Shown in pieces: positions 3,654-33,515 of a stretch of DNA of 64,000 nucleotides. This DNA comes from Euhalothece natronophila Z-M001 (lineage in GTDB: Bacteria; Cyanobacteriota; Cyanobacteriia; Cyanobacteriales; Rubidibacteraceae), in assembly GCF_007904085.1 (NCBI RefSeq), contig NZ_CP042326.1, positions 1,984,001 to 2,048,000 on the forward strand. Reading direction: 5' to 3'. The number at the start of each line of letters is the position of its first letter. The first letter of the stretch is position 1. The notes below the pieces were generated by a model that was given only the letters and a program-made list of their open reading frames with translations, searched no databases and was not told the DNA's origin. The position numbers and the translations under genes were made by a program.

Positions 3654-3760
3654 TATAGTCGTTCCAATTCAGTTCCGTAGTGCAGCCATCTTGGCTGCTA
3701 CTAGGGAGCAAGATGCTCCCACTACTTTTAAGTTGCTGTTTTTTATTTGGAATGACTATA
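3654..3760 (+). mobile_element. 107-bp MITE, copy 1
   Basis: The element begins TATAGTCGTTCCAAT and ends with the near-complement ATTTGGAATGACTATA, so it has terminal inverted repeats of about 15 bp and TA at each edge, the target duplication of IS630/mariner-type transposases. Inside are two perfect hairpins, GCAGCCATC..GGCTGC and GGGAGCATC-type (GGGAGCAAGATGCTCCC). An inverted copy at 33388-33494 differs at only 3 of 107 positions. It carries no gene and would need a transposase in trans. Its right end supplies the TAG stop codon of chrA. Confidence 0.85.
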
Positions 3761-30271: not shown

Positions 30272-30635
30272 TCCTTTATCCCTCTTCTGGCTGATACAGG
30301 AGGAAATGTTGGAGCGCAATCTTCGACTGTGGTGATTCGAGGATTTAGCACTGATGAAATTCGCTCTATAGGGGCAGTTAAAGTAATTCTTCGAGAGGCT
30401 TTGGCTGGAGCTTTACTGGGATTGATGTTAGGCGTAGTCGCTACCGTTTGGGCTTTTTGGTTACAGAATGACTTACAAGTGGCTATGACGGTAGGACTCA
30501 GCTTATTTGCAATTTCTATTTTATCTACCGTTGCTGGCTCAGGTTTACCCTTCTTATTCCGTTTTCTGGGTCGTGATCCAGCTTTAATGTCTGCTCCCTT
30601 TATTATGACAATTGTCTTCTATATTGCGCGATTAG
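30272..30635 (+). pseudogene. 3' remnant of the Mg2+ transporter gene mgtE, interrupted by mobile elements
   Basis: From 30272 the frame reads SFIPLLADTGGNVGAQSST, then VVIRGFSTDEIRS and transmembrane helices to ALMSAPFIMTIVFYIARL. This is the end of the MgtE membrane domain; the N domain and CBS pair (about 330 residues) are missing, and about 12 residues of the last loop (between TIV and FYIARL) also seem lost. The gene then meets mobile elements at 30636. Joining 30632-30634 (TTA), 33384-33387 (CTTT) and TA plus GATTTAGCTTAA (33495-33506) restores a clean end, YIARLLLDLA, so the elements lie in its last five codons. The ATG-start at 30329 is not a real start. Confidence 0.8.
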
Positions 30636-32087
30636 CCCTCTTTTGTCATTTTCCGAGATAAAATGATAAGAAAGGAAAAGTAAGAATAAAGAGGGAAGCG
30701 ACTGCTCATGATGGATGTAGCTTTACAGATTCGTCAACACCTACCGCGAGACCCAGAACCTACTAGCGCGATCGTAGACAACTATTGTGGTTACTATCAA
30801 GACCTGTTTCAAGATGTGAGAAATTATGAATGCTTTAAATTTTTACATTTAGGACTCATCGCACCGATTAAACGAAAATCTCTACCAGAAATTGCCAAAG
30901 TCGTCGGGATTACTTCTGCACAATCTCTACATCACTTCCTTGCTAACTCACCTTGGTCAGTAGAACAATTAAGAGAAAGAAGATTACAAAAAACTAAAGA
31001 AGCCTTAAAGGGAAAAGCAATCACCGTCATTATTGATGAAACTGGAGATAGAAAGAAGGGAAATCGTACCGATTATGTCGCTAGACAATACTTAGGAAGT
31101 TTGGGCAAAATTGACCAAGGAATCGTCTCGGTCAATGCTTATGGAGTGTATCAAGATATCACTTTCCCCTTAAAGTTTAAGGTATTTAAGCCCAAAGGAA
31201 CTCTCAAACCAGGGGATAAATACCAAACCAAGATTGAATTAGCCATAGAACTGATTCAAGAGTTAATTGATTTTGGCTTTAACATTGACCTAGTTTTAGC
31301 AGATAGCTTGTATGGAGAAAGTAGCAATTTCATCAATACTTTAACTCACTATCAGCTCTCCTATGTAGTAGCAATTAGAAGTAATCATAGTGTCCTACTG
31401 CCCCCAGGACAAAGGGTAAGAGCCAATAAATGGTGTCAATTTACTCGCACCTTTAGTGATAACAGTTCCGAAACCAGATACATTCGAGAAATTGTTTATG
31501 GCAAGAGACGAAAAATCACTTATTGGGATCTCACCACTGACCCAGAAACTTTGCCCAGTAATGGGACCTCTTTTGTTATGACCAATCTTCAAGGGAAGGT
31601 CAAGAAAAAACTAGGAGACCTTTACGGTTTAAGAACTTGGGTGGAATATGGATTTCGCCAATGTAAGCAAGAATTGGGTTGGAAAGATTATCGTTTCACC
31701 AAGTTTTCTGAGATCGAGAAGTGGTGGGAAATCATTTACTGTGTTTATTTAATGGTGAGCTTACAAACGCCAGGTTTTAGCTCTTTTGAGCAAGATGAAG
31801 ACAGTGATGATAAGACACAACCATCAACAAGTAATAATTCTCCTCAACATCCCAATTGGAGGAAGGGAAATAGCTGGAAAGATGCCTTACATAACCTACG
31901 TTTAGTTATGGAACCATGGTTCTTATTTTGGTTAGTTGTCCCTTGGCTAGAGATGTTTAATAATGACCACTTATTATTGGGGTTTCAGCATTTATTTTCT
32001 TCTGTTCATCAAGTTAAAATAGGTTTTTAAGAGTTGATTAGAACTCATTATTTTTTACTTCTTGCTTCGGAAAGTGACAAAAGAGGG
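30636..32087 (+). mobile_element. IS701-family insertion sequence, 1452 bp
   Basis: Terminal inverted repeats are CCCTCTTTTGTCATTTTCCGA at the left (30636) and the same with one change at the right (ending 32087). The flanks carry TTAG at 30632-30635 and 32088-32091, a 4-bp target duplication as in IS701. One transposase gene fills the element. It is complete and may be active. The right TTAG includes the first base of the next element. Confidence 0.92.
30708..32030 (+). CDS. IS701-family DDE transposase
   Basis: The 440-residue transposase has an N-terminal DNA-binding part and a DDE domain. TVIIDETGDRKKGNRTDYVA (about 105-124) carries the first Asp, LVLADSLYG (about 203-211) the second, and LRTWVEYGFRQCKQELGWKD (about 305-324) the Glu. 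The transposase has no frameshift. A start at 30711 (MDVALQIRQHLPRD) is equally possible. Confidence 0.93.
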   Translation: MMDVALQIRQHLPRDPEPTSAIVDNYCGYYQDLFQDVRNYECFKFLHLGLIAPIKRKSLPEIAKVVGITSAQSLHHFLANSPWSVEQLRERRLQKTKEALKGKAITVIIDETGDRKKGNRTDYVARQYLGSLGKIDQGIVSVNAYGVYQDITFPLKFKVFKPKGTLKPGDKYQTKIELAIELIQELIDFGFNIDLVLADSLYGESSNFINTLTHYQLSYVVAIRSNHSVLLPPGQRVRANKWCQFTRTFSDNSSETRYIREIVYGKRRKITYWDLTTDPETLPSNGTSFVMTNLQGKVKKKLGDLYGLRTWVEYGFRQCKQELGWKDYRFTKFSEIEKWWEIIYCVYLMVSLQTPGFSSFEQDEDSDDKTQPSTSNNSPQHPNWRKGNSWKDALHNLRLVMEPWFLFWLVVPWLEMFNNDHLLLGFQHLFSSVHQVKIGF

Positions 32088-32090
32088 TTA

Positions 32091-33380
32091 GGGACTTGCA
32101 AGAAAAAAGAATACCCATCAGAACGAACCAACAGTAACTGACCATTTGGGCAGAGATTCTGAAGGATACCAATCAACCCGATAGTCTGCTAAAGACTCAG
32201 GGTCAACTTTGACACCAGTTTGATAAAGCTTAGTGACATGGTGAACCACAGGCTGAGAACCTTTCCAACTCATCTTACTTGCCCATCTCAGAGCCGTGTC
32301 AATAGAGTCCAGAATCGCTCCGTTCCAGAATTGTTCAAGGGCAGCCCAACAACGCTCAATGGGATTGTATTTACTATGATAGGGAGGATAGTAAATTAAG
32401 CGAATCTGGAGCTGGTAATGACGAGAAAATTCTACAATCCTTTTGATGAACTGAGTGCGATTGGAACGGGTAGCACTGCCGCCATCCAAGTTAATGGCTA
32501 AGGTGTTAACCTCGGGAAAGTTTCCTTGATTGCTTTTCCACCAGTGCTCTAGACAATCAACAATGAAATCTGAGGTTTCAGGGGACTCACTCATGTAAAG
32601 AGCTAAGTTGTCTGTACGGAGGTTAAGAATCCCAAAGGGAAGTAGAGTCGTGTGCCATTGAGTATCATGGTCATCGGCTTGAGGGGGAGCTTGGCGACGG
32701 TCTTTCCCACCCCGTGAGAGGTTTCCTAGTTTGACTTTGGCTTTCGAGTCAATTGAGATGCGTAAGACGGTTGGGTCATCATCGGCCGCTTGATTAGCTG
32801 TTGCCACTTGTTCAAAAATAGCATCAGTTTCAGGGATTTTCTTCAATGGCTTGGTTTTTAAGGTTTTTTTAAACGGTAGCCGAGGCGATTTAACATTGCT
32901 CCAATTGTTTGTCGGGTTGGTAATTGTTCATCGCTGTATCCTTTTTCCCTAATCAGAGCATTTCTCACCGCTTGAGCACTCATGCGGCTATACTGAAATG
33001 TGGTTTGGAATTTTGGGTCGGCTTGAGATTGTTCCTCTACTAGGTCGCGAATCTCCTTTCCTAAATTGGGCAAGTTTTCTTCGCTTTTTTTCCGACCCCG
33101 CTCCTGATACTTGTCCTGATAGGAGATTCCCCTTTCCAGATGGTCAAGACCTCTTTGAACACACACTCTCCCCCAACCCATTTGCCTTTCTGTCCGACGG
33201 GCTGAACCTTGAAAGTAGTCAAGGCACACCTGAGCGACAAACACTCGTTTTTTCTCTCCTGTTAATTTTCTCGCTGCATCTTTAAGAGTTCTTTTGAACT
33301 GTTCGTTTAACTCTTGCATCCTCTTTTTACCAATATCATCTCTTCTAGTTTCCTGGGTAATTCATTTTTTCGCAAGTCCC
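32091..33380 (-). mobile_element. ISAzo13-family insertion sequence, 1290 bp
   Basis: Imperfect terminal repeats begin GGGACTTGCAAGAAAAAAGA at 32091 and GGGACTTGCGAAAAAATGAA at 33380 (reverse strand) and extend to ACCCA. TTA flanks both sides (32088-32090 and 33381-33383), so a target duplication of TTA or TA. The element holds a two-frame transposase gene. The IS701 element sits directly against its left end. Confidence 0.85.
32118..33319 (-). CDS. ISAzo13-family transposase, read through a -1 frameshift
   Basis: Two overlapping frames make one protein of about 400 residues. The first, 33319-32858, reads MQELNEQFKRTLKDAARKLT to GYRLKKP and stops. The second, upstream-open in the -1 frame, continues TLKTKPLKKIPETDAIFEQV and includes ISIDSKAKVKLGNLSRGG, INLDGGSATRSNRTQFIKRI and IRLIYYPPYHSKYNPIERCW, the DDE-type core. 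The join lies at TTTAAAAAAACC (A-run at 32864-32870); in frame 0 this gives T TTA AAA and A AAA AAA, both slippery heptamers. The second frame alone would start at 32846 (MKKIPETD), with no good ribosome site. It could also be a simple lesion. Confidence 0.8.
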
Positions 33381-33387
33381 TTACTTT

Positions 33388-33494
33388 TATAGTGATTCCA
33401 AATAAAAAACAGCAACCTAAAAGTAGTGGGAGCATCTTGCTCCCTAGTAGCAGCCAAGATGGCTGCCCTACGGAACTGAATTGGAACGACTATA
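33388..33494 (-). mobile_element. 107-bp MITE, copy 2 (inverted relative to copy 1)
   Basis: The complement of this stretch matches 3654-3760 with 3 differences in 107 bases. It starts TATAGTGATTCCAAAT and ends AATTGGAACGACTATA, with TA at both edges. It lies inside the last codons of the mgtE remnant, 4 bp from the ISAzo13 duplication. As in copy 1, its edge creates a TAG in the frame it interrupts (33390-33392). Confidence 0.85.
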
Positions 33495-33515
33495 GATTTA
33501 GCTTAAGGGTTTCAT

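Follow-up and report, generated by a model that had tools for sequence, protein, structure and literature searches.

Stacked insertion sequences at the end of an mgtE remnant in Euhalothece natronophila Z-M001 suggest that IS701-family elements may favour the edges of other mobile elements

The 3' end of a broken mgtE gene in the cyanobacterium Euhalothece natronophila Z-M001 carries three mobile elements in succession, namely an IS701-family insertion sequence (IS), an ISAzo13-family element and a miniature inverted-repeat transposable element (MITE), and the locus raises the question of why they should have stacked at a single point. The site lies within a stretch of 64,000 nucleotides (assembly GCF_007904085.1, contig NZ_CP042326.1, positions 1,984,001 to 2,048,000), hereafter the window, from whose first nucleotide the coordinates below are counted unless a contig is named. 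The boundaries of the mgtE remnant and of the three elements were checked on the sequence, on their repeats and on other copies in the genome, and the elements were located where an original prediction, made from the letters alone, had placed them. The features of the site are as follows.

30272..30634, + strand: mgtE remnant, the C-terminal third of the genus's own mgtE (PF01769; alignment with five congeners)
30632..30635: left IS701 target duplication TTAG, consisting of TTA from mgtE and a copied G, the first base of ISAzo13
30636..32087, + strand: IS701-family IS, 1452 bp (NF033540; five full copies in the genome)
30636-30656 and 32067-32087: terminal inverted repeats of IS701
30708..32030, + strand: IS701 transposase, 440 amino acids (profile matches)
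32088..32091: right IS701 target duplication TTAG, consisting of the ISAzo13 duplication TTA (32088-32090) and the first base of ISAzo13 (32091)
32091..33380, - strand: ISAzo13-family element, 1290 bp (NF033519 for the fused protein)
33319-32858 and 32846-32118, - strand: ISAzo13 transposase, its two frames meeting at an A7 run
33381..33383: right ISAzo13 target duplication TTA
33384..33389, + strand: mgtE tail piece CTTTTA, of which 33388-33389 are the left MITE duplication TA
33390..33492: MITE, 103 bp, with ends TAGTGATTCC and GGAACGACTA
33493..33506, + strand: right MITE duplication TA (33493-33494) and the last mgtE codons GAT TTA GCT TAA (33495-33506)

The insertion targets of all three elements together comprise 9 bp of original DNA (TTACTTTTA), in keeping with the figure of about 10 bp originally proposed. 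The insertions had also been assigned to the last five codons of mgtE, which holds for the inserted DNA, all of it 3' of a TTA codon, the duplicated TTA itself being the sixth-last codon. When the flanks were joined computationally without the three elements, they read ...APFIMTIVFYIARLLLDLA followed by a stop codon, and a C-terminus of the same kind (...APFITT.VDVLGV.IYF.IAR..L(G/D)L and a stop) was found in the MgtE proteins of five of five congeners (G001, for instance, has APFITTAVDVLGVLIYFNIARIVLDL, and G005 APFITTVVDVLGVIIYFYIARLLLGL), bearing out the proposal that the flanks form one continuous MgtE C-terminus. In 20,000 simulated runs, 9 ISAzo13, 53 MITE and 7 IS701 points (the last counting fragments) were scattered at random. 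Of these runs, 0.025% brought an IS701 to 10 bp or less from an ISAzo13, rising to 0.96% when insertions were confined to 5% of the genome, and under none of three settings did a triple pile-up arise (0/20,000 each). The pile-up at this site exceeds chance.

The order of the two IS can be approached through their duplications. Both copies of the IS701 duplication carry the G with which every full ISAzo13 copy begins (8/8 copies start GGG), as had been predicted, whilst the far side of the window ISAzo13 reads TTAC. With TTAG on either side of IS701 and TTAC beyond ISAzo13, an insertion of ISAzo13 before IS701 needs no further change, and that order, also the one proposed originally, is well supported by the pattern of duplications. 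In the opposite course, IS701 would have arrived before ISAzo13, and the base beyond ISAzo13 would later have changed from G to C. This requires a substitution at exactly that base, though no differences over 2742 bp separate the window IS701 from four other full copies or the window ISAzo13 from three. In its favour, and against the order preferred here, the base in question is G in four of five congeners and C in only one, which makes such a substitution unlikely rather than absurd and leaves the argument leaning on the youth of the copies; we consider this course very improbable. The MITE, 4 bp beyond the ISAzo13 junction, has no readable place in the order.

The IS701 transposase scored 251.7 bits against NF033540 (cut-off 150), as expected of an IS701-family member, and matched the DDE models PF13546 and PF01609. 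The family, which was split from IS4, has a length of 1400-1550 bp and a target duplication of exactly 4 bp in almost all of its members (PMC2266710, Table 1 for the length; this and the other papers cited below are represented by excerpts). In agreement with this, the element is 1452 bp long, and five full copies, the window copy included, occur in the genome, are 100% identical and are all flanked by 4-bp duplications (5/5). Its ends, CCCTCTTTTGTCA, differ from the printed partial consensus ---YACT-Y--YR, which according to the same source does not represent the whole family.

Three of these five copies exactly adjoin another IS: that of the window lies on ISAzo13, that at C1:2615636 at the left end of an element with a DDE_3 transposase domain, and that at C1:2840696 at the right end of such a DDE_3 element. 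In all three, the 4-bp duplication is made up of the 3-bp flank of the older element and its terminal base, giving TTAT at C1:2615636 (TTA and the first base of DDE_3) and ATAA at C1:2840696 (the terminal A of DDE_3 and TAA). At C1:2615636 the far side reads TTAC, whereas IS701 duplicated TTAT, so IS701 was the second to insert there.

Derivatives of IS701 were also encountered. At G000:C1:955067-957812 (L081), a copy is interrupted by a transposase-like gene of 379 amino acids (identified by eye) and its outer flanks do not match, and genomes G238 and G272 (L369, L371) contain internally deleted derivatives (943 and 1053 bp) in which both ends are retained and the 4-bp flanks differ. The latter are possibly IS701-derived MITEs.

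IS701 elements were then surveyed in 388 genomes of the order (172 matched) and nine of the family (three matched), together with plasmids, and stretches around copies with matching 4-bp duplications were kept. In two rounds, 10/47 and 5/19 sequences yielded no element pair, and 11/38 and 7/14 element pairs were excluded for differing 4-bp flanks; L242 was removed as a duplicate of L241, L334, with differing flanks, stood outside the scan, and L315 was scored outside the final set. A total of 37 distinct sites remained. TA was central in the duplication at 36 of them, four of these having been selected for TA, and no strong motif was apparent beyond NTAN, merely a weak AGC mirroring the MITE ends.

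The closest parallel to the window was found in L253, from a genome of another family of the same order (G341). Here an IS701 with 72% DNA identity abuts a member of the ISAzo13 family (PF07592, 207 bits; 43-56% amino acid identity), and its duplication CTAG consists of CTA and the first G of that element, the far side reading CTAT. Once both elements are removed, the flanks read through as a single frame that encodes a Uma2 domain (84.5 bits); the configuration of the window, in the same relative orientation, recurs in an unrelated gene. Elsewhere, IS701 adjoins elements with IS630-type domains (PF13358, PF01710) in L259 and L268, MITE-like elements in L257 and L241, and repeats also present beside other IS701 copies in L249 and L250. 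The same edge of one 129-bp repeat is occupied by IS701 in opposite orientations in L354 and L356, one 106-bp repeat is adjoined on the same side in both L361 and L362 (G238), and L240 is a tandem of two IS701 that share one duplication and were counted once. By hand tally, 15 of the 37 duplication-validated sites are at the edges of other elements, being those named so far in this paragraph, the window site, L280 and L281. The weakest member is L241, with a score of 16, which 6.7% of controls reach, and the edge in L250 is an estimate, as the end of its partner copy in L283 was not found by motif. Rejected as edges were L243, just upstream of an IS5-type gene and within the leader of that gene, and L297, with a match of 29 bp only.

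Two scans compared the 37 sites with control NTAN sites from the same neighbourhoods. The first, which required a score of at least 17 for an inverted repeat plus duplication, found 7/37 IS701 sites and 17/1155 controls (Fisher p = 4e-6); elements with short terminal repeats, such as DDE_3, escape it (L281 scored 14 and L280 13). The second, based on repeat boundaries and with hits of the window to copies of itself removed (reducing 11 to 10), found 10/37 sites against 39/740 controls (p = 4e-5), one of the ten, L278, not being an exact edge. Exclusion of the five sites from the window's own genome, with controls unchanged, gave 6/32 (p = 2e-5) and 8/32 (p = 4e-4), respectively.

On this evidence we favour, with a probability of about 0.65, the reading that the two IS became stacked through a preference of IS701 for the edges of TA-duplicating elements. 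The 5' two thirds of the genus's own mgtE, and a further 24 bp close to its 3' end, were lost, and either before or after those losses an ISAzo13-type element inserted at the TTA codon, duplicating TTA, an event that the flanking copies record directly. A later IS701 used the new junction, where its NTAN target is formed by the copied TTA and the first ISAzo13 base, again as the duplications attest, and the MITE lies at a TA 4 bp further on. More generally, cyanobacterial IS701-type elements probably favour the edges of TA-duplicating elements (ISAzo13, IS630-type elements, MITEs or another IS701) over other NTAN sites, a statistical and partly post hoc proposition. Older insertions that copy a TA-containing site (TA, TTA or TAA) leave an NTAN target for IS701 on both sides, and the edges might be favoured because DNA is gapped or distorted where an insertion is fresh, because IS701 makes contact with the ends or transposase of the older element, or because cruciforms form at MITE ends.

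Several observations weigh against such a preference. The threshold of 17 was fixed after the first set of sites had been viewed and the second scan was introduced later still, and the sites scored after the threshold gave 0/5 and 1/7, together 1/12 against 4/480 controls (p = 0.12). The first five of these came from a replication on 40 further regions, four of which were validated with strict ends and five with relaxed ends, and none of the five was at an edge. Copies within one genome are only partly independent, and if L361 and L362 are one event, joint movement being possible, the tally becomes 14/36. There are 22 of 37 sites that were not counted as edges, with L245 and L366 doubtful among them. 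Within the window's own genome, the fourth full IS701 copy (L278) was rejected as an edge, since it lies 15 bp inside a dispersed repeat, and no abutting repeat was found for the fifth; the DDE_3 copy at C1:2840696, the ninth of its kind, has mismatched duplications (TTA/TAA). Several MITE and IS630 neighbours have no readable order and may themselves have landed beside IS701. Lastly, 4 of 22 MITE copies in this genome touch other repeats within six bases of the boundary, indicating that some clustering is general.

Three other explanations of the pile-up have to be set against this reading, one being that the elements merely share a target motif, in that all need TA and each insertion restores a preferred TA site with no recognition of edges. 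The central TA of nearly all IS701 duplications, the mostly TTA or TAA duplications of ISAzo13 and DDE_3 and the TA duplication of the MITE are as such a motif would predict, but control NTAN sites of the same neighbourhoods are rarely edges and nothing strong was seen outside NTAN over the 37 sites, apart from the weak AGC, so that we regard the motif by itself as a possible yet rather unlikely cause. That other elements generally insert into the duplications flanking IS701, rather than the converse, draws on an ISAzo13 end that lies after TTA inside an IS701 fragment at C1:713705, which means that nesting occurs in both directions in this genome, and on the sequence ambiguity of the order at L257, L259 and L268. 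At the window, C1:2615636 and L253, however, the fourth base of the duplication is the terminal base of the older element and differs from the far side, IS701 being the younger partner in each, and a general reversal of the order appears quite improbable.

The original prediction took a different course, namely that mgtE was already dead and, as a decaying gene, became a neutral landing site at which unselected insertions simply accumulated. The gene is indeed truncated in a genome that has a different intact MgtE of 456 amino acids, and cyanobacterial IS are known to cluster with pseudogenes, a pattern termed local hopping (PMC4369082). Local hopping resembles the present site in the non-random positions of IS and the pseudogenes close by; what the excerpts describe is regional clustering rather than base-exact junctions, and the words 'nested' and 'adjacent' are absent from the main text of that paper. 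A neutral site also leaves base-exact abutment unexplained, as the inner parts of a dead gene or an IS should be equally neutral and are far larger. The same junction was moreover found in a Uma2 gene whose frame is otherwise uninterrupted there, and IS701 adjoins IS630-type elements and MITE-like repeats as well. The occurrence of IS701 on element edges elsewhere, in this and other genomes, does not support mgtE decay as the cause of the pile-up, and we consider neutral accumulation unlikely; the target choice of IS701 is a better place to seek the cause than the state of mgtE.

The mgtE remnant, preceded immediately 5' by two stop codons, scored 95.2 bits against PF01769 (cut-off 27.6) and 125.4 bits against TIGR00400, below the cut-off of 232.75 expected of a complete protein, with only the C-terminal third present. 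A single MgtE match was obtained per congener, in all five within an open frame 466-475 amino acids long, and these full-length mgtE genes have none of the three elements at the 3' end. Alignment with these congeners revealed a 24-bp in-frame deletion (eight residues) before VFYIAR, correcting the loss of about 12 residues originally suggested. The N-terminal two thirds, which had been described as lost, were not found anywhere in the genome with a full congener protein as query; the matches comprised the window piece (residues 328-452), the intact paralogue, which shares 38% identity with that query, and another paralogue, broken like the remnant. This genome thus has only a dead copy of the genus's own mgtE alongside a different MgtE.

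That second broken paralogue lies in two pieces at G000:C1:1781078-1782168 (L051). The intact paralogue appears twice among the matches, apparently through an overlap of contig ends: the two ends of the chromosome contig (L049, L050) appear to share a repeat of about 9 kb, with the same mgtE at matching offsets, which is probably an untrimmed circular assembly. In the congeners, stretches of 12-18 kb around mgtE matched no other gene of the window region; in G002, a cyclophilin gene and thiL, named by eye from their translations, lie 3' of mgtE.

Eight full copies of ISAzo13 occur in the genome and fall into two sub-types, four being identical (including that of the window) and four having seven differences. 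Their 3-bp duplications are exact in six copies and have one mismatch in two, consistent with a short duplication of fixed length. Members of the ISAzo13 family generally have a single uninterrupted transposase frame. In all eight full copies here, that of the window spanning 32118-33319 on the - strand, the frame is split at the A7 run (A_AAA_AAA); the halves alone scored 165.8 and 55.8 bits against NF033519, both below its cut-off of 200, and the protein with its frames fused at the run scored 241.9 bits, a family-level match. Among 18 plasmid relatives fetched from 24 cyanobacterial rows (L192-L209), the match changes frame in 14, of which 12 carry a run of A7 or A8 in the corresponding linker, and is unchanged in four; the state of the frame does not, therefore, define the family. 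In L196 and L198 the transposase is annotated as one gene with a length that is not a multiple of three, and a -1 frameshift seems to be known to annotators. A literature search for ISAzo13 and frameshifting returned nothing related among the titles seen.

The DDE_3 element (L174-L182) is about 1.1 kb long and has exact 3-bp duplications in eight of nine aligned copies, TTA or TAA in seven and TTC in one. IS630 elements duplicate TA, unlike the 3-bp duplications of this element. The MITE has terminal inverted repeats, a TA duplication, no coding capacity and many near-identical copies, as is characteristic of its class; 53 sites with its ends were recorded in the genome, 43 exact and ten with one mismatch. 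One further copy of the family is located between genes of the window at 3654-3760 and is too short for a transposase. No autonomous parent was identified among 30 PF13358 loci (31 matches), other transposase families not having been searched. The only locus with MITE ends on both sides of a transposase, L180, was rejected as a parent, being a DDE_3 element inserted in a MITE.

Amongst known systems, IS231A of the IS4 family, whose transposase group is related to that of IS701, reportedly inserts in the ends of Tn4430, at a sequence motif of one transposon end, and would thus be alike in its insertion at transposon ends. A degree of insertion specificity is attributed to IS231A in PMC2266710, where Table 1 lists duplications of 10-12 bp for its subgroup, as against the 4 bp of IS701. 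IS1111-type targeting, in which the ends of other transposons serve an IS as insertion sites, is likewise known, with IS4321/IS5075 directed to Tn21-type ends (cited in PMC11187229). A DEDD enzyme and a guide RNA act in those elements, according to the excerpts, whereas IS701 has a DDE transposase and is found at the edges of several unrelated elements that have little in common but TA. The excerpts of PMC2266710, which treat the IS701 family, make no mention of insertion at element edges, and no description of IS701 edge targeting was found among literature titles and abstract openings, most subscription journals lying outside that scope. Taken together, the positions of these copies lead us to conclude that IS701 probably prefers element edges, as a variant of known IS-end targeting.

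If this is correct, the nests of IS seen in cyanobacteria would reflect the target rule of one IS family and not a passive build-up in dead genes, and the 4-bp duplications would allow the relative order of insertions to be read at such junctions. A stronger proposal, that IS701-type transposases actively home to the junctions of unrelated elements by way of the copied TA site and the outermost base of the older element, of whatever kind, is put forward here as tentative; were it true, landing on other elements would be a general strategy that leads to nests while leaving host genes untouched. A DDE transposase able to locate the junctions of TA-duplicating elements would also offer a simple system for the sensing of gapped or distorted DNA.

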